Shown piece after piece: positions 12,191 through 61,700 of a DNA stretch of 64,000 bases (positions within the stretch are counted from its first letter, which is position 1; each line of letters opens with the position of its first letter). Origin of the DNA: Dipteronia dyeriana (taxonomy: Eukaryota > Streptophyta > Magnoliopsida > Sapindales > Sapindaceae); the NCBI GenBank assembly GCA_032871835.1, contig CM065301.1, positions 76,354,069-76,418,068 on the forward strand, written 5' to 3'. The notes under the pieces are model-generated. The model was not told where the DNA came from. It did no database searches and worked only from the letters and a program-made list of their open reading frames with translations. The position numbers and the translations under genes were made by a program.

Positions 12191-12199
12191 TATTCTTTA

Positions 12200-13045: not shown

Positions 13046-13049
13046 GGGT

Positions 13050-15668: not shown

Positions 15669-15686
15669 TGCTTTTAATCAAATCGG

Positions 15687-28784: not shown

Positions 28785-29330
28785 AATTATGATGCAAAAT
28801 AATTGTCAAGGATTTTTCATGCAACTTATGTAACTTTCCAATTAGTTGGCTCTTTGAGCGGTCCCTGCCATCTACGGCAACTTTAATTTGAACTAGTCAA
28901 CTTTTCGATTTGGAAATATCGTAATAGTTCAAAATAAATAATTAAATAAGAGCTGTATTCTGAAAATAAAAACAATAAAAACACGTCTAGTAGCTTCACT
29001 GAAAGGTAAATTCTGAAAATGATACAAATAAAAACACGTCCAATAGATTAACTGAAAACATGAAAACTGAAGAACATTCTACATATGTAATTTGACTCTC
29101 CCATCTCTTTAAAATATTTTTATAAGGTTGTAATATTTATTTGTATCCACTTAACTTTATTATTTATAATTAAAAATATGAGAAATAATTATACAATTAC
29201 TTGTAATAATATAATAACCAGAATTTACATACAATTCAATCATTTTTACTTGAATTATGAAACATAAAGAGATAATAGCTGACAATTATCTATGTGGTGA
29301 TAAGTTTATTTTCTCACATCATAATTGTCA

Positions 29331-29335
29331 TATGT
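29331..29335. repeat. Target-site duplication of element C, left (ATAAT)
   Basis: ATAAT stands before the 5' LTR and again at 40548-40552 after the 3' LTR, a perfect 5-bp duplication. Confidence 0.9.
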
Positions 29336-30192: not shown

Positions 30193-30220
30193 ATTGGCAC
30201 TAGAGGGAGGGGTCGAACCT
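30193..30220 (+). other. Element C primer-binding site
   Basis: ATTGGCACTAGAGGGAGGGG follows the LTR end, then TCGAACC. The complement is shaped like a tRNA T-arm and acceptor end (GGTTCGA ... TAGTGCCA). The element B version differs by a few bases. Confidence 0.75.
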
Positions 30221-30238
30221 ACGACTTGATCAAAAGCG

Positions 30239-31654: not shown

Positions 31655-31687
31655 GAGGAAATCCTGGCCATTCTGGAAACAAAGAAT

Positions 31688-32599: not shown

Positions 32600-33008
32600 C
32601 CGAGTCAGAACGAAAAGACCCTATTATTCGAATTCGATCCAAGAGAAGAGCCGAATGAATCCAAAACTGAACTGATTGAAGAAATTGCCCTAAAAGAAGA
32701 TGAACCAGACAAAAAGGTCAAGATCGGGGCCAACCTGGAAGGAAGAGTCAAATAAAGCCTCATTGATCTACTTAAAGAATACAGGGATGTGTTCGCTTGG
32801 AGTCATGAAGACATGGTCGGGATAGATGCCCGAATAATATCCCACCAACTCACAGTAGACCAGAATGTAAAACCGGTGATACAAAAGAGAAGATCATTCA
32901 ATCTTGAAAGAAGTCAGGCGATTAAATAGGAAGTAGAGAAGCTACTCGCTATAAGATCAATTAGAGAGGTCAATTACCTTCAATGAGTGGCTAATGTAGT
33001 CCTCGTTC
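32600..33008 (+). pseudogene. Element C linker between protease and RT
   Basis: Broken frames give the acidic linker LIDLLKEYRDVFAWSHEDM and then the SFNLERSQAIK segment that leads into RT, each separated by stop codons. It corresponds to 13050-13436 in element B. Confidence 0.75.
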
Positions 33009-33690
33009 AAAAGAATAATGGACAGTGTAGAATGTGCGTAGATTTCACATATTTGAACAAGGCATGCCCGAAAGATAGTTTTCCACTTTCGAGGATAGAT
33101 CAGTTAGTGGACGCTACATCAGGCCATGAGTTACTCAGTTTCATGGATGCTTACTCGGGTATAACCAGATCATGATGAACAAGGCTGACGAAGAAAAAAC
33201 AGCATTCACAACTGATCAGGGTTTGTACTGCTATACTGTGATGCCCTTTGGATTGAAAAATGCAGGAGCAACTTATCAAATGTTGGTCAACAAAATCTTT
33301 TCACGGCAAATAGGAAGGAACATGGAAGTATACATTGATGACATGTTGACCTAGAGCACCACAGCAGACAAGCATACTTCAGATCTGCGGGAAACATTTG
33401 ATGTCTTGAGGAGATACCAAATGAAGCTAAATCCGAACAAGTGTTTATTCGGGGTTCCTTCAGGAAGATTCTTGGATTATCAAGTCCATCAAAGAGGAAT
33501 CGAAGTCAACCCCGAGAAGATCCAGACCCTGCAGAGAATGACTTTACCGATGACACTCAAAGAAGTACAGCACCTAACAGGATGTCTGGCTTCCTTAGAA
33601 AGATTCATCTCAAAAGCCACAGATAGATGTGCACCCTTTTTCAAAGTAATTAGAAAAGGGAAAGGACTTGAATGGAATGAAGAGTGCTAG
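33009..33690 (+). pseudogene. Element C reverse transcriptase
   Basis: Frames 32987-33175 and 33172-33354 join at a 1-base deletion near 33160, after FMDAYSG. Motifs are CRMCVDFTYLNKACPKD, VMPFGLKNAGATYQMLVN and MEVYIDDMLT, the catalytic Asp pair, followed directly by a TAG at 33353. The part from 33406 on continues with MKLNPNKCLFGVPSGRFLDY and HLTGCLASLERF. The deletion is shared with the fragment at 24896; four base differences, including the TAG, are private to C. Confidence 0.9.
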
Positions 33691-33984
33691 CATGCATTCT
33701 TAAAAATTAAAGAGTACTTAGGACAGGCTCTCATACTTTCAAAACCTCAGATGGGGGAAACACTCCAACTGTACTTGTCAATTACAAAACTGGCAGCAAG
33801 CTCAGTTCTAGTCAGAACAGAAGATGGAGTACAAAAGCCAGTGTACTACACCAGCAAGGCATTTCCACCAGCTGAGACCAGATATTCACAGGCAGAAAAG
33901 ATTGCCCTGGCACTAGTTTCAGCAGCAAGAAAGCTAAGACCATACTTCTAGGCTCATACAATCCAGGTTCTCACCGACTGCCCA
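33691..33984 (+). pseudogene. Element C RT-linked RNase H
   Basis: The frame 33751-33951 contains MGETLQLYLSITKLAASSVL, KPVYYTSKAFPPAETRYSQA and LALVSAARKLRPYF, then a TAG where B reads LRPYFQAHTIQ. It sits immediately after RT. Confidence 0.85.
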
Positions 33985-34560
33985 TTGAAGCAGATTTTAC
34001 AGAAGCCTGAGATTTCAGAGAGATTAACCAAATGGGCAATCGAGCGAAGTGAATTTGATATCCACTACATCCCCAGGACATCTCTCAAAGGGCAAGCAGT
34101 GGCAGATTTCATAGCAGAATTCACAGAACCGAACCTAGAAGAAAAAAAGATGTTGGGTAAAAGCTTCATGTGGAAATTGTATATTGATGGCTCTTCAAAC
34201 ACTTATGGCAGCGGGGCAGAGATTGTAGTATGCACTCCAGAAGGAGACGATGTCGAATGTTCCATGAGGTTCGACTTCAAAGCAACCAACAATCAAGCCG
34301 AGTACGAGGCGCTACTAGCTGAACTCAGAGTCTGCATAGCTCTCGGGGTAGATGAGGTTGAGATATTTAATGATTCACAGGTAGTTGTCAACCAAGTTCT
34401 GGACGAGTACCAAGCAAAGGATGAAGGCATGATAATCTACCGTGACATTGCAAAACAACTCCTCCAGAAGTTTAAAGAATATAAGATTACCCAGATCCTT
34501 AGGTAAGAGAATGAAAAGGCAGACGCATTGTCCAAGCTAGCGTCAGCAACAACCACAATC
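33985..34560 (+). pseudogene. Element C additional RNase H domain
   Basis: The 173-codon frame starts MKQILQKPEISERLTKWAIE and SEFDIHYIPR, then shows the full RNase H motif set: LYIDGSSNTYGSGAE (Asp), NNQAEYEALLAELR (Glu), VEIFNDSQVVVNQVL (Asp), and, after a stop at 34504, ENEKADALSKLAS (last Asp). It is a second RNase H between the RT-linked one and integrase. Known Tat elements carry such a domain. It is the best preserved extra RNase H in the window. Confidence 0.88.
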
Positions 34561-34659
34561 AGGCCAAAGACTATTCCGGTTGCACATCTCTTTAAACCAA
34601 GCACAGCTGAACCAAGAAACTTGGAAATTTTAGAAATCTGAACACCACCAGACAGTTGG

Positions 34660-35720
34660 ATGACTCAACTAAAAAGATTCCTAGAAGAAGGCGTACTCCC
34701 GAAAGATCCCTTACAAGCAAAACGCATCAGGTATAGATCAGCCAGGTACACATTGGTTGGAGGAGAACTATATAGAAGGGGGTATTCCCGAACACTCCAA
34801 GGATGTGTATCAGAGGAAGAAGCAAATCGAATATTACAGGAAATCTATGGAGAAGTTTGCGGAAACCACACTGGGGGTAAAAGTTTGGCACACAAGGTAT
34901 TCAGGCAAGGCTATTATTGGCCTACTCTATTCTCAGATGCACAACAGTGTTCAGAAAGTTGCAATACTTGCCAAAGGATTGCTAATGACATCCGACAGCC
35001 CCCTTAGCAGATCAGAAACCTCACGTCCCCATGGCCATTTTCCATATGGGGCTTGGATCTAATCGGCTCAATGCCAACCAGGACAGGGGGTGGAGCGAAG
35101 TATGCAATCGTAGCCGTTGACTATTTCATGAAATGGGTAGAAGCTGAAGCATTAGTGCACATCACAGAAGCAAACACCATAAATTTTGTGAAAAAGAATA
35201 TACTTTATAGGTTTGGAGTCCCAAACACTATAATCACAGACAACGGCACCCAGTTCGATAACTTGAAATTCAGACAGTTGTGCAAAGAGTACCGGATTGC
35301 CAATTACTATGCCACACCTGCCCACCCGCAGACAAATGGGCTAGTGGAAGCAGTGAGCAAAATTATCAAGCACACAATCAAAGCAAAGCTAGATGCCAAG
35401 AAAGGAAGCTGGGTTGAAAAGCTTCCCGAAGTGTTATGGGCGTATCGGACAACAGCAAGAACTTTAACAGGAGAAACTCCATTCTTTTTAGCGTTTGGAA
35501 CAGAAGTTGTTATTCCTATAGAAACGTCATAAACGTCACCCCGGGTCAGGCTATACGATGAAGAGAAAAACGTTGATATGCTATTACAAAGTATAGATGA
35601 GCTAGAAGAGAAAATGGAGAAATTCCGAATACAAAATATGGCTTATCAGCAAAGGGTAGCTCGCCACTACAACTCTCACGTTCGGGTCAGAAATTCCAGC
35701 TAGGAGATCTGGTACTCAGA
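34660..35720 (+). pseudogene. Element C integrase
   Basis: The zinc-binding region is in 34660-35007 (HTGGKSLAHKVFRQGYYWPT, CNTCQRIANDIRQ). After a frameshift the core continues in 35053-35532 with MDLIGSMP (first Asp), AIVAVDYFMKWVEAEA, ITDNGTQFDN (second Asp), PQTNGLVEAVSK (Glu) and LPEVLWAYRTT. It stops at 35530 inside the segment after the core. Beyond it ARHYNSHVRVRN is still readable up to about 35720. All three catalytic residues remain, but the chain is broken. Confidence 0.9.
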
Positions 35721-35884
35721 AAGGTGTCATTGAACACAAAAAATAAAGTTGCAGTTTCCCTGGCTGACTGGGGAGACGTCCTTGGTAATGTGTAAGGACT
35801 CGAACATATGATTATGGTGAGCCATGATGTAAAGTTCGGGTAGCAACCATGTATGAAACACAAGTATAAACTTGTCTGTTTTAA

Positions 35885-36130
35885 GATTACACGGTTAATA
35901 ATACAAAGAGCCAGTTTAATAAGATACTTGGCATTATTCGGGTGGCAACCAGTTTAATAAGATACTCGATGAAGTTACCCGAACATCAGAGTTAGCCAGT
36001 TTAATAAGATACTTGGCATGAAAATTACAAGAGCCAGTTTAATAAGATACTTGGCGATCAAAGTTATTTGGAAAAACAACCGGTTTAATAAGATACTCGG
36101 TGAAGTTACCCGAACATTAAAGTTGAATAA
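35885..36130. repeat. Tandem repeat between pol and antisense ORF, element C
   Basis: CCAGTTTAATAAGATACT(T/C)GG recurs at least five times, alternating with TTACCCGAACAT- and AAATTACAAGAG-like words. It is the reverse-complement counterpart of 9200-9470 in element B but differs in copy number and order. Confidence 0.85.
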
Positions 36131-36282
36131 CATACTCGACAACAGTAAAGAAATTTCAAGAGCAATAGAATCAAAATACCAGATTCAGAAAAGCTACTCA
36201 GAATTTTATTAATCTTTCAAGAGAATTATTACAGTATTCTTTACAAAGAATTTTTAGTCTACAAAAACCCTATCTATAAAAA

Positions 36283-39191
36283 TCAGGATTGTGAGGATTT
36301 GGACCCCTTGCCAATACTCGGGTCTGGCACCATTTCGTATTCGAGGAGCAAACTTTCGTTGGAAGGCCAAGCAATTGTGTCGACTGAGTCATCCATCCAT
36401 TGGCTGTAATCCTCTCCTGGAATCGGCCCGACATCAGGCTTCACACCCTTCACGACCGACTCTTGGTTGGCATAGAAGGTCAAGAGAAACTGTTCGGATG
36501 GAATCTCTAAATGCATAGGATGGGGATTTTTGCCTCGGCTACGGCAGTAAGCCCTCCATTCCTTCATCTGAGTTCGAATAGACTCTAAAGACCGATCCAC
36601 ATGATGTTTGATTGACAGCTCCCAATTGGTTCGGGCCTTCTCAGTTGCCCAATTCTTGACTTTGAAGAATTCTCCAGCTAAAACCAGCCCTCGTTGAAAC
36701 TTCCGAAGGAGAAGAGCATCATAGGCAGATGATCTCTTGAAATGATCTACCCTTTGAACTTCAAGTTCCAGTCTGGCCTCTCGGGATAAGGATTCGACTG
36801 ACAACGCTTGGTGCTCTAAATCTTCAATTTTCCGCTCATACGCCGACTTAGATTGCTACGCTTCCTGTTCGGCCATGAGTATTGATTCCTAGGCAGAAGA
36901 CAATAAGTTCTGAAGTGATATTGCTTTCTCTTCTGCCGAAGAAGCCCTTTTCTCGACCTCCATCTGCTTTGCTAGACAGTGGTCGACAAAAACCTATACA
37001 TAATCAACCTCATGTTGATAAGCTGTTTCGACCCAAGCACACCGATCCTCACTTTCCTTTAGCTGAGCTTCTAGACGCCTTATTCGATCAACTTGATGTT
37101 GTTGCATCTGAACTAGCCCAGCGAATTCGGGCACCATCTACCAAAAAGGTTTAATTAAAAATCTAAAAATCGGGCAAACAAGCAAAACAATAAAGGGTAA
37201 CTTACATAAGATGCACCGTTGAAGAAATTCTGAAGGCGGTCAGTCAGAGAGCCATCTCGGAAACAGCTCCAACGGTCGTCTCCGATAAAGGCCCAACCAG
37301 ATGACATCTCCCGTAGCATATCCTAGGGAGAAGGATATGAAGGAACCCCCAAGGATTCAGCCCCAAGATTTCTAACCTCGGGGGTAGCAAAACCCTTGTT
37401 CGGTTCTGAAGCCGCCGCCGTATCCGTTGACACTCCAGCATCAACACTCGGGGGAATCTCATCCACAACATCTTCATCGCTGGAATCAATGAATGAGACC
37501 ACCCGAGGGATCTTAAGTGGGTGGGTCGAGGAGCTGACTGCTTTTCGCTTCTCACCCCAAGAACAGTGTAAGCTCAGATCAGCTGCGAGATCCTCCTGAG
37601 AATCATCCCTGAAGGACTCAAAGAATTTGGGATCCACAGGTACTTGTCCCGCAGTGGTATTGCCTCCATCACCGGCGTCAGTCTGCTCGGCAGGCTCCTT
37701 ACCGAGACCTTCACTCTGCCCTTGCCTGTCGTCATGCAGCTGGGTATTGGTCGAGCCACTTGGACCACTAGTTTCCCCAACTGTCAGTTGAGAAACATCC
37801 TCTGGAACATTTTTAGAAATTTGATCTTCAACCGCATCAGCCTCCTCGTCAGACTCAGACGGGGCGATGCCTTCATCACCTTGATGTGAAGTTTCTTTCC
37901 GACTCACCTGAATAATTGACTTCACTTGGCGGGCCTGAAGATCGCATACGATGTCCATATCAAACACTTAGAAGAAAAAAGGAACCGCGTCAGAATGCAA
38001 AAACAAAAAAAAAATAACAATAAAAGGAAAAGGTTGCAAAAATATCTTACATCGCCTACGTTGGCCCAAAATCTTTTCGAAGAAGCCGAACTCAATCATC
38101 TTCGACTCAAGGAAGAGATAAGTCTTGCTCCTCTTCTCCAAAGTGCGAACCAATGCCCTAGCAATTCTGGTCAGCTCCGCATCACTGTACTCGATTTTGT
38201 TCTTGTTCCAAATCTCGTGGGAACAGAAGAAACGGGGGACCTTCAACACCGACCGAGTATCCCTAGCTGAAACAGTGACTTCTAGCCCGAGACTCCCTCC
38301 GGCGAAAAACCAACTGTTCTTCTAGAACTTGTTGGACGTAGGAATCCCCCCATATAAAACCCCTCTTTTTAGGGTCGTCGGAGATATCAGCTTCTAGGCT
38401 CACTTTTATCCCCTTAGGGACCCAGCAATCTGGCGAATTAGACATGAGGAAGTAAGTCCCTGACTTGCCCGATTGCCTCAGCTTAAAGAAGTGTCTGATT
38501 TCATTCAGGGATGGCGACGATAAGTTCATCCGGCTGAACATGTGCCATAGGCACATCAAAATTTTGTTGCTATTTGGGGCCAGCTGAGCCGGAGCAATCC
38601 CTACTTCAGCCAAAAACCAGGTAATGAATGGTTGGAAGGGAAGAGTGATGCCGCAACAGAGTATGGATCCGTAGATCGCCACCATACCAAGGGGAGGGTT
38701 CCATGCAGCTCTATCACCCGCTGGAACCAGAGTGACCGAATTAGGCAAATCGAATCGGCAGCGATACTTCATTATCTCATCTGACCCGACCACATTCGGC
38801 TCGGTGTCAAACCCACTCGGGCGTTCAGCAGGAAAAGTAAGACAAGAAGCCCTGAACTCCTCTTCAACGTCGTTCCCGTTGACAGTCTGCTCCCTGATCA
38901 GAATATCGCCCGAGTTGTGTTTGCGGACTGCACTTCTACTTTGATATTTTCCCATCCTTCGAAGAGGTAGCCTGTGGTCATAAATATCAGAATCAGAACT
39001 AGATGAAGAACTCGATACAGGGCTAAAAGTGACGTCAGAGTGAAGTCCCGAAACATCAACTTCTAGAAATGGAGATTCATCTACAGGGATTTCCCCCAGT
39101 AATCTTCTAATACAAGAAACTAACTGGAAATCATCACGTTCTAATGCATCAAGAGCGACATTAAAAGACGATGACGGGAAGATGGCTCCAT
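36283..39191 (-). pseudogene. Element C antisense ORF, three apparent exons
   Basis: ATG at 39191 opens MEPSSRH, followed by a 1-base shift. The frame 38955-38263 (230 codons) is the gypsy-type transposon domain: FDLPNSVTLVPAGDRAAWN, MVAIYGSILCC, PFITWFLAEVGIAPAQLAP, EIRHFFKLRQSGKSGTYFL and WVPKGIK. The frame 38249-37968 continues it (KVPRFFCSHEIWNKNKIEYS). Exon 2 (37967-37323) is an acidic linker. Exon 3 (about 37150-36283) is a coiled coil ending in the 173-codon frame SVESLSREARLELEVQ ... VPDPSIGKGSKS. It is better preserved than in B and reads opposite to gag-pol. No function is known. Confidence 0.8.
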
Positions 39192-39670
39192 TAAAAACTA
39201 ACCTTGAATAAAGTCTGGTGCAAGATCTTCAATGAAAAGTCACGACCTTCTGCGTAAGAAAATCTGGGCTCAATAATTTTTTTCTGTTGAGAAATCTAGG
39301 ATTACGAAATTTCTTCTGCTGAGTGAAGAATTTAAAGAAATCAAAGCATGAAACCCTAGATCTCAAGGCGGGAAAAAAACAATTGATAGCGTAGGCGGCG
39401 CACGGGGAAGCGAGTAGGTCGTTTCTCATAAATGATATCGAAAAACGAAGAGACAAGAGACACGTGTCAGAAGGAGAACTAGCTTTTGCCGTCAGAACTC
39501 CAGAACGTCGTTGTCATTAAAGATCTCGCGTAAGGAGGCAAATCGAATTTGCATGGTCGTCATTAAAACACGTCATTATGACAATATATTTACTTGGATA
39601 CTGAAAAGATGTTGATAACTAATTAAAATACTTTTGCCCGAACAAACCTTGTTCAACAAAAATATTTTAA
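39192..39670. other. Element C region between antisense ORF and 3' LTR
   Basis: No supported coding region. It is the counterpart of 5660-6138 in element B. A purine tract AAAGAGGTAT lies at 39669-39678, directly before the 3' LTR. Confidence 0.55.
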
Positions 39671-39678
39671 AGAGGTAT

Positions 39679-40547
39679 TGTCATATGTGAATTTTATGGA
39701 ATGAACACGTCATCAAACAAAGAGGATAAATTGCCAGATGGACATCCGAATAGGCATTCAGAAAATATCCTACAAGACATTGCCGAAGAAGAGAAAACAC
39801 GAGTAAGCTGATGTTGAATGAAACCTACTCTGGTTAGTTAACGGCACTCGAGACTGATTAAATAACACCTCCACTCGGGCTCAAACGATGATACTCGGGC
39901 CCCGCTAGTATTATCCTTGCTCGGGATAAATATGAAGAAAACCGAATAAGAAGCTTAGTGCTTAGTTCACACGGATTAGGTCATTAAATACACGAAGATA
40001 TCCATATCAAGAAGGAATCCCAAAGAGAACAGAATACTGAGTTGGAAGGGTTCCAAATCAGGCAACAACTTTATTTCTTTAAAAATACTAGGTTCTTATA
40101 TAAGGAAACAAGTCCAAATTGGACTGCACTACTAGAATCTCATTCGACTTCAATACAAAACTCCGAAACAGGAAAGAAGACAATCAACTCCAAATAAGAA
40201 AATAATTGTAATTAAATACAAAGATCTATTACTTGTACAAAGCAGATTGGGGCTCTATAAACATATAAATAGACCCATAATCTCACCAAAAAAAGACACA
40301 CACAGAAATCATAGCAAAATACAGAGAGAAGAAAGAGAGATCGAGAGCTTGTAACATTCCAAATTCATAGTGGAATTTTTGGCTAGGTTGATCATTCAAC
40401 CACCCGTGGATGTTCCTTCGGTCATCGGAGTTTTACCACGTAAAAAACTCGCGTCTTGTTTACTTTCTCCTTCTCTCTCTTTGAAATCTCAGCCGAAATC
40501 CAATCATTGTTGGCTTTTCTGATACAATCCAGAAATCAACATCAACA
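39679..40547 (+). repeat. Element C 3' LTR (869 bp)
   Basis: It begins TGTCATATGTG and ends ACATCAACA, matching 29336-30192 with scattered changes. It is followed by the duplicated ATAAT. Confidence 0.93.
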
Positions 40548-40748
40548 ATAATTATTTGAATTTTTAAATTATTAATATTTTAATTTATACTAATTTTTTA
40601 ATACATCAGCATATAAGGGATAGTTTGATCAAAACATCAAGGAATCTATAATAGAATACATATTGCAACCAAACAAAGGAATCCATCTAAGAAAGGAATT
40701 CTTTTCCTAATCCCTTTCCTGTGCCCTTTTCTTTCTACGAACAAAACA

Positions 40749-49792: not shown

Positions 49793-49846
49793 TTATGTGA
49801 ATTAACTTTTGCTAAGTTAACCTCGAAAGACTTGTGAAGCAGTAAC

Positions 49847-50383
49847 ATGGCGGACAATAGAGATGGAAGCCAGTCTCCGAATGATTCTGACACCCTGCGT
49901 GCTGGTGATAACTCTAACCCAATAAATGCCAACAATGATAGAGGAAGCTTGCCCTCCGTTACTCTAACCTCAACTGGTCAAGCTCCGATAATCTCCACAA
50001 ATGCTCCCCTAGGGATTTCCCTAGACGTATTTCAGCAAGTCCAAGAGTCCATACAGAGGGTCATTGAAGACGCAGTTAGACAGGAAATCAATATAACAGC
50101 AACCGCCAATCTGACCGTACCATATCAATTATCTACACGTATGGTGGCTCGAGACCCAAGTTACGTTCTGAGATAATGGACGTGACCCCAGGCATGCCTC
50201 GTAAAACTAGTAGAGAAAGAGCGGATCATCGTGGAACGGGGGAACACTCCTAAAAGGGAGATGAAAGAATTAGCAGACGGGGTAGGTGTGATCGGTATCA
50301 AGCGGACTTTGAGCCATAATAAATCTGTATAAATGTTCTTAGGCAGGATCAATTTAGCTTATCAGATGATAGCGACTGACCAC
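49847..50383 (+). pseudogene. Element D gag, N-terminal part
   Basis: ATG at 49847 gives ADNRDGSQSPNDSDTL, an unstructured Ser/Asn-rich start, with LDVFQQVQESIQRVIEDAV near residue 70, and a stop at 50174. The position 77 bases after the primer site matches gag in B and C. The following 200 bases lead to the insertion of element E at 50384. Confidence 0.65.
50379..50383. repeat. Target-site duplication of element E, left (ACCAC)
   Basis: ACCAC occurs here and at 60401-60405, flanking the two LTRs exactly. Confidence 0.9.
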
Positions 50384-51701
50384 TAACACGTCCTAAAGAA
50401 ATGTTCATACTCCCAAGTATAAGAGTGTCAAAGTAATAAATTAACTAGTAAGACCGGGTCGAACCACATGGAGGTTGTTCACTTGTCCTTGTAGAATAAT
50501 TATCTAGATTAATTACTAAGCTTGTTATAAAATGTAAATCAATTAAAATTAAAACTGGGGTTAAGGGATCCACTGTTGGTAATTCGAATATGATCCAATT
50601 ATTAATATTTAGTCCAGATTAAAGGGTGAAATTTTCACTCCCTTGTCCACTTCACTGATAGATATGGTGTAAAGTACCTGACAACATTTGTCCGTCCACA
50701 GTGAGTCAAGACTCCACAAAGATCAGTGAGGATAAACCACTCTCTGATATATATGGGTAAAAGTACTCACTGTGCTAGACAATATATGTCTGTCTACAGT
50801 GAGACAAAAACTCTATAAAGATCAGAGGGGAGAAAGCAAAAAAATAATAAACTTACCGTAATTGGATCATATTTTCCATACCAACAATATTACATTTGAC
50901 CTCAACTGTATAAAATTAGCCAGACATAATTTAACTAGAAAATAGCTATTTTATTTAAATTGAGAATTTGAGAACAAAAGAGAGAGAATTTCACAAATCT
51001 AATATCAGATTTGGATTCAGAATATGCAAATTAGGGGGGAGAAGTCCCCTATTTATACAAAATACGGATGAAAATTGACCGTCGGATGAATTTAGAATGG
51101 AGTATCTAGATTTTGCCACGTCATCAGTGAATAGTGAACAGTAAACGCATCCGTGAAAATCAATAGTGAACAGTGCACCGGCTTCTAGAATATGATTATC
51201 TGCAGCAGGTGTACGGTGCCCTCACAATTTATGTCAATAGAAATGTGTCGCGTCATCGGTCAATAATCTTCTAGAAAGTCAACTATGAACAGTGCACCGA
51301 CTTCTAGAATGTGATTCTCTGCAGTCACGTGTATGGTGCACTCATAGTTTGGGCCAATAAGAATGTGCCACATCATCAGGAACATTGAAAGTCAACTGTA
51401 AACAGTGAAAGTCAATTGTGAATAGTGAATAGTCAAAATTACAAAAATGTCCTTCGTGGCCTAACTAAGGTTTTTGACGTTCTAAACTTGAAAACGATGT
51501 TTGTTTTACCATTTAACTTCTTCATAATTCTAAATTGATCGAATTACCTCTGAAATATAAAAAAAAATACACTTATTACTACACAACACATTTATTTAAG
51601 CGAGCGAACGAAATTATGTCTAGATTAGGGAATTAATCATATTGGAAGTGTAAAGTGATGGTATTATCCCTTAGTAAACATACACTTTTCCGTGTTAATC
51701 A
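50384..51701 (-). repeat. Element E 3' LTR (1318 bp)
   Basis: It begins TAACACGTCC (the usual TG start is TA here) and ends GTGTTAATCA, and matches 58986-60400. It contains two internal near-duplications: a block around ACTGATAGATATGG (about 50655-50830) and one around GTGCACCG(G/A)CTTCTAGAAT (about 51170-51380). Confidence 0.93.
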
Positions 51702-51712
51702 CACCCCTCAAC
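51702..51712 (-). other. Element E polypurine tract
   Basis: The minus strand reads TTGAGGGGTG directly before the 3' LTR start TGATTAACAC. Confidence 0.75.
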
Positions 51713-52919
51713 TAGCTTATTGTTAGTCCCTGGCAATTAAAGCGGAAATAGTTAAAACTCAAATTCAAATCTCTAAACTACCAAATAGACAAACTCTCTT
51801 ATACTTCTTTTCTCACATTTTGACAACCAGTCATCAATCGAGTTATCAATCAAACTTTCTTATGCTTAATAAAGATCAACACGATAACTATAAGATTCAA
51901 TTGACATCAAACAATATTTTCATTCTGAAATCTCATCAGGGCTTTTTCCTTAGGCAACAGTTTTATTCTTTTTTTTTTTTGGTTTTTTTTTAATATAACG
52001 AAATTGGAAACAAACATTTCATCTTTAATCCATGTAGCGAGTTTTAGGCCAATGACTTCCAAACCAGTTGGCTTTAGGGCATTAAGTGTTAAAACACTCC
52101 TACGGACTTAATTACTCGGATTGCATATGTTTTTTTTAGTACAATTCCCTTAAGCTTTCTCTTTAACCCGTGTAATAAGCTTTGGGTCAATGATTCCCAA
52201 ACCAGTTGGTCTTAAGGCATTAGGTGTTAAAGCACCCCTCGGACTTAATTGCTCGAGTTAAAGAAGCTACGAAACTGTACTTTATTTTTATCCAGACTCC
52301 ACCGTTTTGCTCAAACACTCTATGCTTACTGAGGCATGAGACCCGGCTACTAAGTAAGAGTTTTGGTCAAAACACACAAATTTATTATTATTATTATTAC
52401 TATATATTTTTTGAAACAAGACCACTGTCTTCGGTTGTTACCCTTGAATGATGTTTAAGGACTAAATCTCGTAAAATCTCAACTTACTGTACATAATCAC
52501 GTGTCAATGTGCATGTGTGTCCAGAATAGTTCAAAAAAATTCTCAAGATGACTTAATGAACAAAAGGATTAGTCAATGATATTACAATGAGAGTTTATAA
52601 ATTTGAATAGTCAGAAGAGAGGAAAAAAAATACATCAGAACTACAAAGATGCGTCTTAGAAGTATCTAAAAGATCTCCTTACTCTGCCATCTTTACAAAA
52701 AAAAAATGACCAGAAGTTAGTTTTTTTTTAAAAAAAAAAGTTATTGAACCAATTATCCCCTCCCCCAAACCAGAACGAGACATTATCCCCAATGTCTTTA
52801 GAAAGAGTTAAGATTTAGAAGATATCACCTGAACAACTTGAAAGACAACAAAATCCTGCAAAACGACAAAAGAAATACAAAATAAAGGAAAATAAAATGC
52901 ATAAAAACCATGGGACAAT
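51713..52919 (-). other. Element E 3' untranslated region
   Basis: Non-coding. Two imperfect copies of AATGA(C/T)T(T/C)CCAAACCAGTTGG plus GGCATTA(A/G)(G)TGTTAAA (about 52030-52130 and 52170-52260) and, on the minus strand, GACATTGGGGATAATGTCT and GGTTTGGGGGAGGGG near 52755-52795 are texts typical of plant retroelement 3' regions. They show that retroelement sequence continues on the far side of the LOG copy. Confidence 0.7.
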
Positions 52920-53654
52920 CACAAACTGAGATTCAGATCAATTCTGTGTTTCTTGTTCTCTTCATCAATGGACCAATCAATTTTGGAGGTTGAAGGATCT
53001 GACTCATAATTGAAAATTGAAAGCTTGTAACTGGCCAATCAGCTCATGAGGACTTGAAGCAGAGATAAATATTTTTCGGATTGAAGGTGGAATGTAATAA
53101 TTAAGAAAATCATCATAAAATTTATTAACACTCAATAAACCGATGGGTTTCTCATGGATGTGTAGTTGTGCCCAGGATGCCATTGTAAAGATTTCTTCTA
53201 CGGTTTCAAAACCACCTGGCAAAGCTATAAACGCATCAGCATGATGTAACGTAGCAGTCAATCTTTCAGGCATACCTGAAACAACTAGCTCTTCGCCGTT
53301 TGTCTTTCTGATGATGTCTGCTACGGCCATAGGTTTTGGCACAATTCCCAGAATTTGACTACCTCCGTCTTGTGCAGCTCGTGAAACACACCCCATTAAT
53401 CCCAAGTTACCTCCTCCATACACTAGGTGTATTTTTCGCTCAGCCAAAACCTTACCAAGATGAGTTACAACATCAACAAACTCTCTATATTTCCCATAAT
53501 TGGTGCCACCAAACACACGAATGTTTGTGAATCGTTTAGTTGAAGGTGACACCGGTAATGCACTCTCTAAAATTTTCTTTTGAATGTTTATGAGTGCTTG
53601 AAGCAAAAAGGAAAACAAATGCTTGTATTTATAGGTCCCGAAAAGGTAACACAA
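52917..53654 (-). pseudogene. Intronless LOG-family cytokinin riboside 5'-monophosphate phosphoribohydrolase copy inside element E
   Basis: LOG enzymes release active cytokinin bases from their nucleotide forms. The 216-codon frame (53654-53004) aligns along the whole family: IRVFGGTNYGKYREFVDVV at 45-63, LVYGGGNLGLMGCVSRAAQD at 77-96, ADAFIALPGG at 139-148, SWAQLHIHEKPIGLL at 160-174. The hallmark PGGxGTxxE reads PGGFETVEE, and the usual RK pair near 131 is RL. About nine residues seem missing after FLNY. A 1-base frameshift near 53010 cuts off a tail still readable to 52917 (DPSTSKIDWSIDEENKK). Residues 1-28 look non-homologous; the ancestral start is probably near 53570, now TTA. Plant LOG genes usually have several introns; none is here. 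It is probably inactive. Confidence 0.88.
53626..53633 (-). promoter_or_regulatory. Possible TATA box upstream of the LOG copy
   Basis: The minus strand reads CCTATAAATACAAG about 60 bases before the presumed ancestral LOG start, followed by a short A-rich leader-like stretch. It may be a promoter brought in with the gene, or chance in AT-rich DNA. Confidence 0.4.
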
Positions 53655-54407
53655 TAATACACCTATATGTATAGGGCGACGTATTTGTCAATGATATTAG
53701 ATCCAAATGGTTCAAAAATCAAAAGTAAACAACAATAATTGATATTAAATGTGGAAGGAAAAAGATAATAAAAACAAAAGGATATTTACTGGTAGTTGTG
53801 ATTGTGGCTCATATCTTCCTCTGGTTTTACATCCAAAAACAGCTTCAACGCCCTCTATGGGTCGAGGATACGCTTCCCATCCAATTTTCTTATAAATTGG
53901 CAAACAGGGTCTTTTAAAGTCAGATTTCCAAGACTATATTGTGCATGTTCTTTTTGAAATTGTGGTCATAATCGGTCAATTGCCATTTGCATATATCTAC
54001 TAGGATGTGCATCAAAAGTCGTTAGGATATTATCCAATGACTCCCTAGGCAAACCATGCCTAATGAATAAAATTTTATCTTCCGATTATTAGACACCATT
54101 TCTAAAGAAAGACAACGTGTGTTGCAAGTTGTACGTGCACATTTGTGACAAGTAACCCATAACTTCTTAGCTCTTCATTTTTTTTTGCAAGGTTACTTCT
54201 TCCAAAACCAGGCATGTAAGATATAAATGAATCAGCAGACTCACCTGCTAGACGTACCTTAGCTTCGATCAACCGGTGAATTTCAACAGGGATTTTGTTT
54301 ATCATCAGTAAGCGTAATCTTTCAGAACGTGTTTTGTAAATCTTTTTCAGAGTATTTTGGGGCAACAATGGAAAATGTTTTCGTAGGTTTGTGAAAATTT
54401 CGTCCAT
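53655..54407 (-). pseudogene. Unidentified ORF between integrase and LOG in element E
   Basis: The frame 54407-54102 begins MDEIFTNLRKHFPLLPQNTL and contains LMINKIPVEIHRLIEAKVRL and SYMPGFGRSNLAKK. After a break the reading continues with FIRHGLPRESLDNIL, FDAHPSRYMQMAIDRL and LTLKDPVCQFIRKLDGK to a stop near 53792, interrupted by two stops. I do not recognise the family. It has no membrane segment or signal peptide, so it does not look like an envelope protein. It lies after a possible intron (54630-54543). Confidence 0.5.
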
Positions 54408-54542
54408 GCCTTGTTTTGGGGATCAGTTATTTGGGAAACTAAATTAAACCGACTTGAATTGTCACGGAGTACCGTTATCCGCCACTTAACTGGGGCTATA
54501 TAGCAAAACACACGAAGCAAAAACTGAACCTAGAAATTAATC

Positions 54543-54630
54543 CTGTAAAAATTCAAAACGTAAAAGCGAACAAAAAAAAAAATAATTGCAAACACAAATA
54601 AAGTCAAAAGCAAAAGATTTTTTTACTTAC
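54543..54630 (-). other. Possible 88-nt intron between pol and downstream ORFs of element E
   Basis: On the minus strand AAAG|GTAAGT at 54630 is a strong donor and TTTTTACAG|GA ending at 54543 a good acceptor, with a T-rich stretch before it. Splicing here would lead from the end of pol to the unidentified ORF, much as envelope-like ORFs are reached in some plant elements. Inferred from sequence only. Confidence 0.4.
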
Positions 54631-54667
54631 CTTTGTAACAAGGGTCAGAAAGGACGGCATAGTCTTT

Positions 54668-55713
54668 TTAAAAATCTGTATTTTCTATGAATGGTTTCAC
54701 ACGTTGTCCATTGACATTAAACACGTTACCATTCCTAGGATTCTCAATGTCAAGGGCACCATATGGATACACGTGTTTCAAAACAAATGGACCACTCCAT
54801 TTTGATTTCAATTTGCTAGGAAATAAATGAAGTCGAGAATTATAAAGCAAAATCTTTTGACCAATTTCAAATAATCTTCTTAAAATTCATCTGTCATGAA
54901 AGGTTTTAGATTTTTCTTTAAGAATTTTTGTATTTTCATATACATCATTTCTTAATTCTTCAAGTTTATTTATTTGCAACTTGCGCAATTCACCAACATC
55001 ATTTAGGTTATAATTGAAAGCTTTAATAGCTCAATATGCTTTTTTCTCAAGTTCAACAGGGTAAGTGGTAAGGTTTTCCATAAACTAAACGATATGGAGA
55101 CATACCCAAAAATGTTTTGAATGCAGTGCGGTAAGCCCAAAGTGCATCATTTAGTCTACGAGACCAATCTTTTCGATCAGGGTTAACCGTTTTCTACAAG
55201 ACATGTTTTATCTCCCTATTTGCTAACTCAACTTGACCACTTGTTTGAGGGTGGTATGGTGTGGCAATTTTGTGTGTGACTCTATATATTTTCATTAAAG
55301 ACTCAAAAGGTTTGTTACAAAAGTGTTTGCCTCCATCACTGATAATGGCTCGAGAGATTCCAAATCGACTTAAAAGATTTTCCTTTAAAAATTTAATCAC
55401 TGTTTTGTGATCATTATTTCGACAAGGAATTGCCTCAACCCATTTTTACACATAATCAACGACAACCAAAATGTACAAAAAATCCAAATGACGGTGGAAA
55501 TGGATCCATAAAATCAATTCTCTAACAATCAAATATTTCAATGACAAGAATGGGGTTTAAAGGCATCATGTTTCGCTTTGAAATATATCCTAACTTTTGA
55601 CAATTTTCACAGGTTTTATGGAATGTATGTGCGCCTTTAAACAAGGTGGGCCAATAAAATCCACATTGTAAGATTTTCGCAGCCATTTTTTTTATGAAAA
55701 ATGACAACCACAT
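54668..55713 (-). pseudogene. Element E integrase core and C-terminal part
   Basis: The frame 55713-55522 gives KKMAAKILQCGFYWPTLFKG, THKTC-type zinc ligands in FHKTCENCQKLGYISKRN, and MPLNPILVIEIF. The frame 55400-55194 holds IISDGGKHFCNKPFESLM (second catalytic Asp; the usual Asn is Gly) and HPQTSGQVELANREIKHVL (Glu). The frame 54850-54668 gives [20 protein letters not shown] and [20 protein letters not shown], the C-terminal domain typical of Athila integrases. Stops separate the pieces. Confidence 0.88.
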
Positions 55714-56387
55714 GCTTCAGAATGACAAAATTCAATGACAGTACTTACCTTATTGCCTGGAATACACCGTCGAACAATTTGATCAGGATAATACTTGAAT
55801 AAGTACGGGTGATCCCAATAAAAACGTTTTACCTCGGTCAAAAAATTCTTTTTGTCCTGTGCATTCCAATCGAGTGGCATCATTCTTTCTTGCTCTTCTA
55901 TGAGGTTAGAAGAGATTACCACAGGGTAGGTCTGCTCATCTCCAAGGTACGCATATTTGAGTCCCTCTGGTAAGGGTTTCAAATCCAACTGAGGTGCTTT
56001 TTCTTTTGGCTCGTCATCTTTCTGTTTCAATTCTTCAAAATCTAAAGTGTCTCTTTCTTCTTCGGCAACCTGCAAACAATTATCAAGATGTGAATACATG
56101 CATGACTCAAGTGAATTGATCAAACAAACTTCAAATGAGTTAAAAAAATCATTTTGAACATGATCTTCAACAATGGTTTCAATAATGTCTACATCTTCAT
56201 CTTCATTTTCATCATCAAATGGTTCCTTAGACATATTGAAAAAATTAAGCTTAATTTCCATATTTCCAAAAGACATGTTCATTATTCCATGCCTGCAATT
56301 AATCAAGGCATTTGCAGTAGCTAAAAATGGACGACCCAATATAACAGGAATTGATTTGTGCTTATTAACAACATGTTGTGTTTTCAA
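55692..56387 (-). pseudogene. Element E protease C-terminus fused to integrase N-terminus (RT and RNase H deleted)
   Basis: One 231-codon frame starts with the protease end ILGRPFLATANALINCRHGI and an acidic linker, then LDLKPLPEGLKYAYLGDEQT and SSNLIEEQE, which in Athila elements precedes RT. It passes straight into MMPLDWNAQDKKNFLTEVKR, YLFKYYPDQIVRRCIPGNKV and FCHSEACG, the zinc-binding start of integrase. No RT or RNase H motif lies between. The junction is near 55870 and keeps the frame. Several hundred codons are missing. Confidence 0.9.
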
Positions 56388-57207
56388 GACAATAAAATCT
56401 AAATTTATCGACTTGTACTAACACATATTCCACTATTCCTTTTGGTATTTTAATTGACCTATCAGAAAGACAAAGTGTGGTTGAAGTCGGCTTTAACTCA
56501 CCAAGTTTAAGTCGCTGATAAAATGAGTATGAGAGTAAATTTACGCTAGCACCTAGGTCAAGTAAAGCATGCTCAATTTTATAGTTACCAATTATACAAG
56601 AAATAGTGGGACAACCAGGATCTTTATATTTTAAAACAATTTTGTTGGAAAGAATGGAACTTACCTGTTCATCCATAAATGCTTTCTTTCTTACCTGATG
56701 CTTCCTTTTCACAGTGCACGGATCCTTTAAAAATTTGGCATAGGAAGGTACCTGTTTGATTGCGTCCAACAAAGAGATATTGATCTTTACCTGTTTGAAA
56801 ATTTCAAAAATATCTGGGAGATGCTTCGATTTCTGTGAATTTTTAAGAGCCCGAGGATATGGGAGTGTATGTGGGGATTCAATTATTTCTTCGTCAACAG
56901 TGGTTTCATCAACCCCTTCCTTACCCTTGGAAAATGACTCATCATCATTTTTACCAGATTCAAGAATAGATGTTTCGATGACCTTACCACTGCGAAGAGT
57001 GATAATTGATTTAACTTGATCTGGGCGTTGGTTATTGTCATAGGAACTTGACTGACTCTTGGGATTTGGTTGTGGTTGAGATAGAAACTTACCTTTTTCA
57101 TGTGTGGTAAGTGTAGAAGCAATCATTGCCAAAGTATCTTTAACATCTGTCAAGGTTTGTGTTGTTTGGCTATTAATGGATTCTTGCTTCTCAATAAATG
57201 AGTGCAA
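56365..57207 (-). pseudogene. Element E gag C-terminus and aspartic protease
   Basis: 280 codons: an unstructured stretch with ITLRSGKVIET (typical for Athila), LPYPRALKNSQKSKHLPDIF and VKINISLLDAIKQVPSYAKF, then the protease active site ALLDLGASVNLLSYSFYQRL with SDRSIKIPKGIVEYVLVQV. The active-site triad DLGAS is kept, so it was probably functional. It runs on into 56387-55692 with a short frame overlap. Confidence 0.9.
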
Positions 57208-58510
57208 AGTATCTTTAAGGTTTTTCCTAGATGGTGGGACATAGGGCGCATAACCTTGAGGGTTTTGGAAATTCTGGTGTGTTTATGGATTTGATGGACC
57301 TGGTTATTGTGAAGACTGTGTTTGATTGTTGTTCCTCCAACTAAAGTTTGGATGATTTCTCCAACCAGGATTGTAGGTTTGTGAGTATGGGTTGGAATTT
57401 GGCTTGTTGAAAGTGTGCAAAACATTGACTTGTTCATGAAGGCAATCTTTTATGGCTGGTAAAGTTAGGCAACTATGAGTGATATGATCATCAGAATCAC
57501 GTTCATGGCATGCGATTTCTTGTATAGATTTTTCATGTTCACTCTTTTTAGTTTCTAAAGCTTCAACTTTCCTAGCTAGGGATGCGAATCTAGCTTGAAG
57601 GTCATGATCTTCCCTAAGATTGTAAATGCCTCAACTAGATAGAGATGGTTGTGGTTTGCTCATGGACTTGTAGGAACCAATAGTGTCCCAATTTTGAGCA
57701 CTTTCGGCGATATGGTCAAGGTATTCAAGTTCTTCTTCAGGATTTTTATCACTGAACTCCCCGTTACACACCATTTCAATGACTTGTCTACTTTGGGGTG
57801 TGAGTCCCTCATAGAATGTGACACTGTCCTCCATGTTCCAAAATCGTGACGTGGACAGACATTTAACAACTCTTTGAACCCATTCCAACATTGGTAAAGT
57901 GTTTTCCCATGTTTTTGGGTAAATGAAGTGATTAGCCTCTTAAAAGAGTTTGTTCTATGAGGTGGAAAAAATTTCTTTAAGAACTGTTGTTGCATGTCAT
58001 TCCAAGTTTGGATTAATCCTGACCTAAGGTTTTGTAACCAAGTTTTAGCTTTATCTTTTAAGGAAAAAGGGAAAAACTTAAGCCTGATTATATCCATGCT
58101 AACATTTTGGTCAGTGCAAGTGTTACAGATTTCCTCAAACTCTCTAAGATGCAAATATGGGTTTTCAGATTCGAGACGTAAAAATTGAGTAAAAGTTGTT
58201 GAATGATTCCTGGTTTAAAATTAAAGCGTGTTGCATTTGGTGGGAAAGCTATGCATGAAGGTGCTCCAGTACGTGTGGGATTCATGTAGTCTCTAGGAGT
58301 TCTAGGTGGATTTGGGTTAATGTGTTGGTCAAGGTCAACATAAGGCAGATGGTTGTTGTGTTGAGATATGTTGTCAATGTTGTCTAAAAGATTTTCGGTT
58401 TGGTTTCCTGCTGGATGTCTAAGTGGGTTTTCAGCCATGTTGTTGGTGAATGTGGGTGATTGTGATCTCCTAATTAACCTACCACTAGATGTTCGAGACC
58501 AACGTCTCAT
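57208..58510 (-). pseudogene. Element E gag (Athila type)
   Basis: Start at 58510: MRRWSRTSSGRLIRRSQSPT, then the conserved Gag core FFPFSLKDKAKTWLQNLRSG, TWNDMQQQFLKKFFPPHRTN and FTQKHGKTLYQCWNGFKELL in 58154-57660, FYEGLTPQSRQVIEMVCNG and ESAQNWDTIGSY in 57891-57631, and YNPGWRNHPNFSWRN near 57350, a signature of Athila Gag. Small frameshifts near 58150 and 57850 break it. It would form the particle and, in helper-driven movement, package the RNA. Confidence 0.88.
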
Positions 58511-58959
58511 GCAAATTTAATGAGGGTTCATGGAGGTGAAATACATAAAAATGAATAAAATAAAAGAAAAAGTGATAAAAATAACAAGATGTAAAATTCT
58601 AAGGGTGTAAATACAAATATACACAAGTGTTGGGGTGAAAATGCAAATACCTATAAATTTAGAGACTAAAGTGAAAATATGACAGATAGAGGACTGATCT
58701 GCAAAAGTGAAAATTAAAATGACCTATATGCAAATACAAATTAGATCTAGGCTAAAATGTAAATAAAAAGTTGAATGACTAAAATGCAAAAATTGTGATT
58801 AATGGTTACAAGTGCTTTTTTTTTAAGTGGATGAAGTTTATGATTGAGATGAGTGATGCAAAATTGAATACAAAATAAGAACAAAGAAGATAGAAAAAAA
58901 ATTGCAAAACTAAAATAAAATTAAAAAGAAATTACTTCTACAAAGAAAATGCAGACTTA
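58511..58959 (-). other. Element E leader between primer site and gag
   Basis: AT-rich non-coding leader with repeated AAAATGCAAATAC-like words. Its length fits the long leaders of Athila elements. Confidence 0.6.
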
Positions 58960-58980: not shown

Positions 58981-59641
58981 AAACTTGACACGTCCTAAAG
59001 AACTGTTCCTACTCCCAATTATAAGAGTGTCAAAGTAATAAATTAACCGGTAAGACCGGGTCGAACCATAGGGAGGTTGTTCACTTGTCCTTGTAGAATT
59101 AATTATCTAGATTGATTACTAAGCTTGTTATAAAATGTAAATCAATTAAAATTAAAACTGGGGTTAAGGGATCCACTGTTGGTAATTCGAATATGATCCA
59201 ATTATTAATATTTAGTCCAGATTAAAAGGGAGAATTTCCACTCCCTTGTCCACTCTACTGATAGATATGGTGTAAAGTACCCACTGTGCCTGACATCATC
59301 TGTCTGTTCACAGTGAGTCAATACTCCACAAAGATCAGTGGGGATAAACCACTCTCTGATAGATATGGGTAAAAGTACTCACTGTGCTAGACAATATCCG
59401 TCTGTCTACAATGAGTCAAAAACTCCATAAAGATCAGAGGGGAGTACGAAAAAAAATAATAAACTTACCATAATTAGATCATATTTTCCATACCAACAAT
59501 ATCACCTTTGACCCAAACTATATAAAATTAGCCAGATATAATTTAACTAGAAAATAGTTATTTTATTTAAACTGAGAATTTGAGAACAAAAGAGAGAGAA
59601 TTTCATAAATCTAATATCAGTTTTGGATTCAGAATATGCAA

Positions 59642-59644
<3 letters not shown>

Positions 59645-59675
<31 letters not shown>
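59645..59675. repeat. Run of 31 guanines
   Basis: The equivalent place in the other LTR has only six G (about 51035). It may form G-quadruplexes, or the length may be an assembly or consensus artefact. Confidence 0.95.
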
Positions 59676-59677
<2 letters not shown>

Positions 59678-60009
59678 GAGGTTCCCTATTTATATAAAAT
59701 ACGGATGAAAATTGACCATCGGATGAATTTAGAATGAAGCGTCCAGATTTTGCCACATCATCAGTGAATAGTAACCGCATCCGTGAAAATCAATAGTGAA
59801 CAGTGCACCGGCTTCTAGAATATGATTCTCTGCAGCACGTGTACGGTGCACTCACAATATAGGTCAATAGAAATGTGTCGCGTCATCGGTCAATAATCTT
59901 CTAGAAAGTCACCTATGAACAGTGTACCGACTTCTAGAATGTGATTCTCTGCAGTCGCGTGTATGGTGCACTCATAGTTCGGGCCCATAGGAATGTGCCA
60001 GATTAACAG

Positions 60010-60125
60010 GAACAGTGAAAGTCAACTGTGAACAGTGGACAGTGAACAGTGAAAGTCAACAGTGAACAGTGAAAGTCAACTGTGAACAGTGAAAAGTCAA
60101 CAGTGAAAGTCAACTGTGAACAGTG
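60010..60125. repeat. Expanded short tandem repeat in element E 5' LTR
   Basis: GAACAGTGAAAGTCAACTGT-like units occur about six times, against two degenerate copies in the 3' LTR near 51380-51425. Confidence 0.9.
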
Positions 60126-60400
60126 AATAACCAAAATTACAAAAATGCCTTTCGTGGCCTTCCTAAGGTTTTTGACGTTCTAAACTTGAAAACGATGTTT
60201 GTTTTGCCATCTGACTTCTCCATAATTCTGAATTGATCAAATTACCTCTGAAATACAAAAAAAAAATACAGTGATTACTACACAACACATTTATTTAAGC
60301 GAGCGAACTAAATTATGTCTAGATTGGGGAATTAATCATATTGGAAGTGTAAAGTGATGATATTATCCCTTAGTAAACATACACTTTTCAGTGTTAATCA

Positions 60401-61700
60401 ACCACCCCGCAAAACACCCAGAATGGGTAAGTCCCCTCTAAGATTCAGTACCCTGAGTACCCAAACTATGATGGTTACTCACATTGTCCAACAAGGGCCC
60501 GTCGACCGTTAGTGATCATGAGTGGATAACGAGCCAGAAGAGGAGCAAGACATCTTGATACAGGAATTAACCCAGAAGATAGAAACATTAGAATGTCTCC
60601 AAAAGCTCAAAAGATTTATTGTATAATGATCTCGAAAGCCACTAAGTAAACATCATTCTCCAAACCCAGATTTCGGAAAGATTCAGATTGTCTCAGGTTG
60701 AGCAATTTAAAGCAAACACGAATGCAAAAGAACATGTGAGACATTTCCAAAGTGTGATGGCGCAATACGCTTACAATGACCCACTAAAGTGTTTGACGTT
60801 CCCGCAAACACTCGGGGACTTGGGGTCTAGATGGTTTGGAAGACTCATTCAAGGCACAATCAAGAATTTCAAAGAATTGACCTATACTTTTTCATGACAG
60901 TTCTTAGGAAATATAAAAAGGAGGAAATCAATAGCACACATTGCCACCCTCAAACAGGGGAATAAAGTATCATTAAAAGATTACCTAAAAGGATTCTCTC
61001 AAGAAGTGTCGGGGATATATAATCCCAACGATAAAGTTATGGTGGCTGCCTTCACCAACAACCTACAGAAGGGTCGGCTTTCCTTCAATTTGAGGAGAAA
61101 GTGGCCAAATACATATGTCGGCCTGATGGATGTGGCAAACAGCTACTCAATGGCTGAAGAAGAGGAACTAGCTAAAGGGTGTAGTTATGTGCATGGGGTC
61201 ACCCCGAGGAGAACGTCAAAACAAGTGAGGGTTATGTAAAGAACCGGAAGAATGATTACCGGGAGAATGGCAGTAACCAAGATGGCTGTCAAATCGAAAT
61301 AGTAGAAACAGTCGAGACGACGGAAAGTTCTATGGTCAGTACACCAACTACATTACCCTCATCATGAGGCAAGAAGAAATCATGGCAATCGTAAAAGAAA
61401 AGAAGCTAGTCAAATATCCTCATAGACAATCAATCTATGTTTGAAGAGACACGATAAAATACTATAGGCCCAATAGGAAAGTGGTCACTATACATCAAAG
61501 TGCTACTAGTTAAGAGACCACATAGAAACACTTATCAGGGAGGGACACCTTAAAGATTTAATTCTTAAAAGGACAAGCGATCAATAGAAGGATCCCTACT
61601 AGGACAATTAGCCAAGAGGAAATTAGAAAAAGAAGCAAAGCCCGACCCGAGGCAGCGACAAATGGATAATCAACACTATTTTCTAAGGACCCTACACAAG
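60401..61700 (+). pseudogene. Element D gag, continued after element E
   Basis: Frame 60688-60897 gives LSQVEQFKANTNAKEHVRHF, CLTFPQTLGDLGSRWFGRLI; 61006-61239 gives MVAAFTNNLQKGRLSFNLRR and LMDVANSYSMAEEEELAKGC. These match the capsid of B and C (CLNFPQTLGDMGLRWFGRL, LSFDLRRARLTRYADMMDMA). Beyond 61240 only broken frames remain, with the region corresponding to the zinc knuckle near 61440-61520. Stops and shifts are frequent. Confidence 0.85.

Follow-up and report, generated by a model that had tools for sequence, protein, structure and literature searches.

A LOG-like gene is a constant part of an amplified Ty3/gypsy retrotransposon family in Dipteronia dyeriana

In 2011, Steinbauerova reportedly noted two Athila-like elements with similarity to LOGL4. 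A YgdH/LOG domain has been reported in LTR-element consensuses of Citrus sinensis and C. clementina and, under a looser filter, in those of Populus trichocarpa; PMC9289625, which reports them, was the only paper found when we searched the open-licence literature for captured cytokinin-related frames in Athila elements. Host genes of other types are carried by LTR elements as well, and many captured genes in sorghum remain functional, as parts of PMC7264820 describe. In this study, we analyzed a stretch of 64,000 nucleotides from Dipteronia dyeriana (the whole stretch is called the window below), in which a LOG-like frame lies inside an LTR retrotransposon. A preliminary description of this DNA knew of no element carrying LOG, which the Citrus and Populus consensuses contradict, and Dipteronia (Sapindaceae) is an addition to the known hosts of LOG-carrying elements. 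In this amplified family of elements, LOG is a real and constant gene, and the family is of a kind already known.

The element in the window is a decayed member of a Ty3/gypsy family. Comparison of the LTR pair, read on the minus strand, placed the 5' LTR at 58986 to 60400 and the 3' LTR at 50384 to 51701, and matching copies of the target-site duplication ACCAC adjoin them on the left (50379 to 50383) and on the right (60401 to 60405). Between the LTRs, all on the minus strand, follow a gag region in several frames (57150 to 58516, with a match to Pfam Retrotrans_gag of 9e-16 at 57663 to 58214), a protease/linker region without reverse transcriptase and RNase H (55692 to 57282) and an integrase core piece (55194 to 55445; Pfam rve, 9e-9, above the cut-off). 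Three frames of 55300 to 57299 gave no match to a reverse transcriptase, and integrase was seen there. The C-terminal part of the integrase (54640 to 54900) had no Pfam match, and its segment 54818 to 54883 resembles the start of the Citrus protein P0251. Pol is followed, ahead of the accessory frames, by a conserved leader (54452 to 54502) that P0251, P0158 and P0173 have as well. Then come an upstream accessory frame (53855 to 54407), the LOG-like frame, which is probably exon 2 of the accessory gene (53004 to 53596), and a 1.2-kb spacer up to the 3' LTR (51702 to 52918), in which only one short frame is listed, on the plus strand at 51727 to 51993. The gag, the integrase core and LOG all lie on the minus strand, hence LOG is in sense orientation to gag-pol. 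Pfam matches, coordinates and strands thus agree with the preliminary description, which had put LOG between integrase and 3' LTR, sense to gag-pol and within an LTR pair flanked by ACCAC. The two LTRs differ by 92 substitutions over 1311 aligned columns, a K80 distance of 0.074 (computed with 4 bases beyond the 3' LTR, to 51705). At LTR substitution rates of 1.3e-8 and 7e-9 per site and year, this corresponds to an age of 2.8 and 5.3 My, respectively. From its gag type and a primer site resembling tRNA-Asp, the element may belong to the Athila lineage.

Several features of the element and its surroundings were observed in passing. The 5' LTR has a run of 31 G at 59645 to 59675 where the 3' LTR has 6 G (51034 to 51039), either an assembly slip or a real expansion, and a direct repeat of about 100 bases (81%) lies at 52017 to 52255 between LOG and the 3' LTR, as it does in sister copies. 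Plus-strand frames flank the element at 49838 to 50176 and 60646 to 61239, of which the right-hand frame has a weak similarity to gag (PF03732, E 0.024, under the cut-off), and the element may be nested inside another Gypsy element. Elsewhere in the window, 4732 to 16626 and 29324 to 40549 are two LTR elements that belong to the same family and run in opposite directions, 81 to 87% alike over long stretches, each with LTRs of roughly 0.9 kb that are about 94% alike. No tRNA genes were found within the 64-kb window.

The LOG-like sequence lies in an open frame of 227 codons (53004 to 53687, minus strand), which matches Pfam PF03641 (1.8e-25) and PF18306 (2.9e-12); none of 300 single-base shuffles of 51706 to 55190 gave an open frame as long. 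With 121 bits it passes the TIGR00730 cut-off of 96.35 bits and hence belongs to the LOG family, and it matches Arabidopsis LOG3 (6.5e-42) and also LOG8. It scored below the cut-off of the NCBI equivalog profile NF058542 (85.9 versus 300 bits), which is weak evidence because P0037 and P0054, which have the full active-site motif, miss it too. On its sequence, the window copy of LOG is a relic. No ATG stands at or before its start, and a Met first appears within the core (53004 to 53555, with the stop codon at 53004 to 53006), whereas 17 of 20 sister copies have an ATG at the LOG start. Compared with its relatives it misses 8 residues after FYD, its active-site motif reads PGGFETVEE and so departs from PGGxGTxxE, and the C-terminal tail with its basic LxLxL end (52922 to 53023, stop at 52919 to 52921) has been shifted to another frame. 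The frame noticed by the preliminary description is present, though its tail is out of frame and its start codon absent. The missing start and residues, the changed motif and the shifted tail rule out an active enzyme from this copy. The domain was also said to be intronless, and it is so over its whole length, but a probable intron of 648 nt lies just upstream (53597 to 54244, minus strand). Capture of a spliced transcript, as proposed from the intronless domain, is plausible.

We searched the host's own genome (914 Mb in 78 contigs, with 40 of 1058 first-look candidates scored) for other copies of LOG. The query matched at least 40 places at 85 to 91%, with the window's own place (100%) among those 40. 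Twenty sister copies of 10 kb each were fetched, all located through LOG, so that the sample was directed at LOG-bearing copies only. Upstream frame, LOG and at least part of the 3' spacer are in window order in all 20 (L020 has only the last 95 nt of the upstream frame); integrase is present in 18, and LTR, gag and protease in 17 each. Eighteen starts of the 5' LTR could be read, each with different outside bases, and in the two copies read at both ends the target duplications are AGTAT (L009 with L029) and ATTGA (L013 with L031); three additional short stretches contained no LTR ends. In addition to an LTR pair with target-site duplication and to gag and integrase on one strand, the Ty3/gypsy family thus has independent copies at other sites (20 copies, two further duplications). 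Because its position is constant while flanks and duplications differ, LOG is a fixed part of the element and not a late insertion. The preliminary description had taken LOG to be part of the element since retroelement sequence continues on its far side, and had suggested a search of the host genome for other copies, including copies with the same junctions and different target duplications; all of this was borne out. The sign of a late insertion that it had named, sister copies all lacking LOG together with a separate duplication or poly(A) tail around the LOG segment, did not turn up among the 20 copies, which were found via LOG. An open LOG frame of 230 codons from the acceptor is present in 10 of the sister copies, PGGFGTLEE in 14, and an upstream frame open over 183 codons in 3. 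The Dipteronia proteins in the databases are very probably sister copies of the window element.

Protease and integrase are about 0.8 to 0.9 kb apart in the window and in 13 of the 20 copies; in four others (L019, L022, L024 and L028), the distance is about 2.45 kb. Both long-spacing copies that were scanned, L019 and L028, contain RVT_1 and RNase H, which at least one of them has split between frames. Hence, there are two subfamilies, with RT-less and RT-type spacing, and both have LOG. Since 13 copies share the short spacing, the window element belongs to an amplified RT-less subfamily that retained LOG, and since RVT_1 is absent there and present in L019 and L028, it is a non-autonomous member. 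A loss of reverse transcriptase private to the window copy was ruled out by the short spacing common to these 13 copies.

The upstream accessory frame encodes 182 aa in relatives; in the window it has an ATG at 54407, is frame-shifted and contains one stop. With the piece 54105 to 54422 as a query we obtained 97 relatives, many with a precomputed match to PF01623 and some with one to PF05515, which are families of virus nucleic-acid-binding proteins. Among 42 chosen relatives, PF05515 matched 26 (best 2.3e-7) and PF01623 matched 23 (best 5.1e-7) at E <= 0.01, some above and some below the cut-off, and C6_DPF matched 3 weakly. A Pfam scan of the window piece gave no match, and the predicted structure of the upstream frame has a mean pLDDT of 48.8. 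In the window, a donor (CAG/GTGAGT, intron from 54244) and an acceptor (CTTCAAG/CACTC, intron to 53597; slashes mark the splice sites) would join the first 54 codons of this frame in phase to LOG. The donor is the sole GT[AG]AG within an 881-nt stretch, CAGGTGAGT occurs twice on the minus strand of the window, and the Dipteronia gene model P0201 uses the same junction. Of the 20 sister copies, 15 have CAG/GTGAGT, all 19 that retain this part have GTGAGT, and 17 to 18 (18 including L012) have the acceptor AG at the corresponding place, which is weak evidence because the copies are about 96% alike. Among the 331 proteins listed as matches in three protein searches, 12 automatic gene models (11 from Citrus, 1 from Dipteronia) combine the start of the upstream frame with LOG. 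Eight of the 12 leave the upstream frame, as judged by eye, right after ...AKV(R/H)L; seven of these enter LOG directly (in two cases in its middle), and P0219 enters another piece first. P0251 contains the integrase end, the leader and the accessory frames in window order. Close to where the upstream frame ends on its 3' side, a second frame (53793 to 53903, minus strand) is 77 to 78% alike to Citrus P0219 and P0224, and this stretch may be conserved for another reason.

The best 120 of 428 matches in the first protein search to LOG came from Dipteronia (60 to 85% identity), Xanthoceras, Populus, Reevesia and other contigs, with three double-LOG Xanthoceras models scoring highest among the matches listed, and the best 120 of 722 matches in the third search were mostly from Citrus x changshan-huyou. 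Clusters P0282, P0066 and P0245 comprise 705, 325 and 79 sequences, respectively, and copy number suggests that the LOG proteins of Reevesia and other relatives are element-borne too. Searches of IMG/VR by tblastn with P0037, P0141 and alignment A2 found no relatives. A basic stretch with a terminal, EAR-type LxLxL ends the protein in Populus (5/5), Reevesia (8/9), Citrus (80/102) and other relatives (72/97), as well as in most open host LOG copies and, in the shifted frame, in the window; it is found in 1 of 10 Dipteronia models, many of which are short, and in none of 11 from Xanthoceras. LxLxL alone occurred at 160 of 46800 shuffled ends. The alignment with Arabidopsis LOG3/LOG8 ends at residue 202/204 of 217, before the tail. 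LxLxL is the EAR motif that binds TOPLESS.

We favor, with a probability of about 0.4, the explanation that LOG is an old accessory gene of the element, encoding a retained LOG-fold protein whose long-term role is regulatory rather than hormone release. The regulatory role is suggested by the drift of the active site, described below, while the fold and the basic LxLxL tail were kept. An ancestor of the element would have taken up a spliced LOG transcript, and LOG would have become a regular accessory gene, placed downstream of integrase and of a small frame of the nucleic-acid-binding type. The single 3' region could then give two products, an unspliced protein of that type and, via splicing, a LOG protein. 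The RT-less subfamily would have kept both frames and spread, presumably with the help of RT-bearing relatives, and the LOG active site would have drifted across relatives, up to a non-catalytic form in Citrus, with fold and tail maintained. In the nucleus, the LOG-fold protein might bind a nucleotide or a partner and recruit a corepressor, presumably to the benefit of the element; the EAR-type motif is what points to these nuclear and corepressor roles. Against a retained function stand the pN/pS ratio among host copies, given below, and the lack of the tail in Xanthoceras and in all but one of the Dipteronia models.

Alternatively, LOG could be a passenger that was transduced early and no longer matters, the open frames being young copies of masters that kept LOG. 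We consider this possible but rather unlikely. Pooled over the 45 pairs of the 10 host copies with open LOG, pN/pS was 0.96, and over 3 pairs of the upstream frame it was 1.39; purifying selection on LOG was not visible at the depth of the open host copies, as expected for a passenger. The ratios for fixed differences all rest on few changes and were 0.87 between the open copies and the window (4 synonymous, 12 nonsynonymous), 0.51 for L028 (12 and 21), 0.61 for L027 (11 and 23) and 2.02 for L026 (1 and 7). A passenger would also be consistent with LOG not being open over the whole frame in 10 of 20 host copies and in the window, and with only 31 of 102 Citrus models having 215 to 226 aa, a Met start and an LxLxL end. 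However, dead copies bring pN/pS to 1 through their terminal branches, irrespective of what happens in the masters. LOG has persisted in both Citrus and Dipteronia without losing fold or tail and was retained by the RT-less subfamily, which argues against a mere passenger.

Related elements in different plant families could have captured LOG separately, several times, which would be compatible with LOG as an old accessory gene and which we regard as somewhat doubtful. We calculated a tree from 58 chosen proteins out of 234 of the LOG type, the window and three references, leaving out 8 proteins that were short or chimeric. In this tree, the window groups with Dipteronia (100/99) and then with Citrus and two other rows (97/90), and the references are outside the remaining 59 rows (98/97). 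The LOGs of Xanthoceras stand apart from this clade together with two other rows, with weak support (89/48), and have no tail, in favor of separate captures. They appear as tandem LOG pieces within one gene model in P0001, P0002, P0003 and P0006, and P0001 and P0002 contain between these pieces a sequence like the window protease (56749 to 56892; 50 and 52%, E 6e-10 and 5e-9). On the other side, window, Dipteronia and Citrus form one clade with the same upstream frame, in a tree that was made without host LOG genes.

The element LOG could also be an active hormone module that frees cytokinin and promotes cell division and thereby more copies, with Citrus as a degenerate exception; we consider this unlikely. 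For the LOG enzyme of Corynebacterium, catalytic roles have been proposed for Arg99 and Glu122; Lys100 (adenine binding), Gly116, Gly118, Thr119 and Glu121 help to bind AMP, and alanine at crucial residues nearly abolished activity, according to parts of PMC4979012. An active enzyme is favored by the complete PGGxGTxxE motif in Xanthoceras (11/11), named Populus (5/5), Reevesia (6/9) and other relatives (79/96), along with PGGFGTLEE in the majority of the host copies. The motif is complete in 3 of 6 Dipteronia and 0 of 53 Citrus proteins, where rows gapped at the motif were not scored (49/102 Citrus, 4/10 Dipteronia, 1/97 other relatives). All 53 Citrus proteins have replaced the catalytic Glu (Ala in 45, Thr in 6, Val in 1, Ser in 1), while 51 of 55 retained the catalytic Arg; despite the loss of Glu, the Citrus-type P0282 still passes the TIGR00730 cut-off. 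The Lys that follows this Arg and is equivalent to Lys100 is kept only in Xanthoceras (11/11) and in 4 of 97 other relatives, and in none of the scored rows of Dipteronia (0/6), Populus (0/5), Reevesia (0/9) and Citrus (0/55), which speaks against hormone release, as does the broken window copy. The preliminary description had imagined that a mobile element could spread cytokinin activation; the idea is dead for the window copy and doubtful for Citrus. Finally, a late independent insertion of a LOG retrocopy into the window copy is extremely unlikely and was ruled out by the constant position of LOG in all fetched sister copies, with no supporting point found.

The origin and role of most extra frames in plant LTR elements are obscure. 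The origin of LOG is clear, and with LOG in every fetched copy, a tail common to plant families and catalytic residues lost in one lineage, its role is directly testable. In the databases for Citrus, Populus and Dipteronia, many entries labelled 'cytokinin riboside phosphoribohydrolase LOG' probably represent retrotransposon genes, some of them lacking active-site residues, and such mislabelled entries would inflate counts of the LOG family. Should the partner frame prove to be a true relative of the virus nucleic-acid-binding proteins, a gene would be shared between RNA viruses and LTR elements. The more specific possibility of a two-product rosid Gypsy module, in which a virus-type nucleic-acid-binding exon is spliced to a LOG-fold protein whose tail is nuclear and recruits a corepressor, seems quite improbable; if true, a hormone enzyme would have turned into a retrotransposon regulator of host transcription or silencing, kept by an RT-less subfamily.

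Overall, the partner frame, the conserved tail and the loss of the active site in Citrus look new, as the entries listed in searches of the open-licence literature included nothing on them. A carlavirus-type protein joined to an LTR retrotransposon was not found there either, nor in the consulted part of PMC2714080. The relatives of the upstream frame share a basic stretch and a Cys-rich part with the virus PF05515/PF01623 proteins, but their first ~36 residues are outside the match. Arabidopsis LOG3 (2a33) and LOG8 (1ydh) have the domain and most of the sequence in common with the element LOG, whereas they have no LxLxL tail aligned and many element-type copies differ from them at active-site residues. 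In the LOG-bearing LTR elements of Citrus and Populus, too, the LOG domain forms an extra frame within a Ty3/gypsy element, and section 12 of PMC9289625 mentions neither a partner frame and its splicing to LOG nor the tail and the loss of the active site. As in Bs1 of maize and other LTR elements with captured genes, a host gene lies inside the LTRs in sense orientation, but the transduced frames described in parts of PMC7264820 are in one or few copies, whereas LOG is in 20 of 20 fetched here. The Gypsy elements of Phalaenopsis with an AlkB-type RNA demethylase, described in another passage of PMC9289625, likewise form an amplified Gypsy lineage with a fixed extra domain from a cellular enzyme; there it is a different enzyme whose activity has been shown, whereas the LOG elements are known here from sequence.
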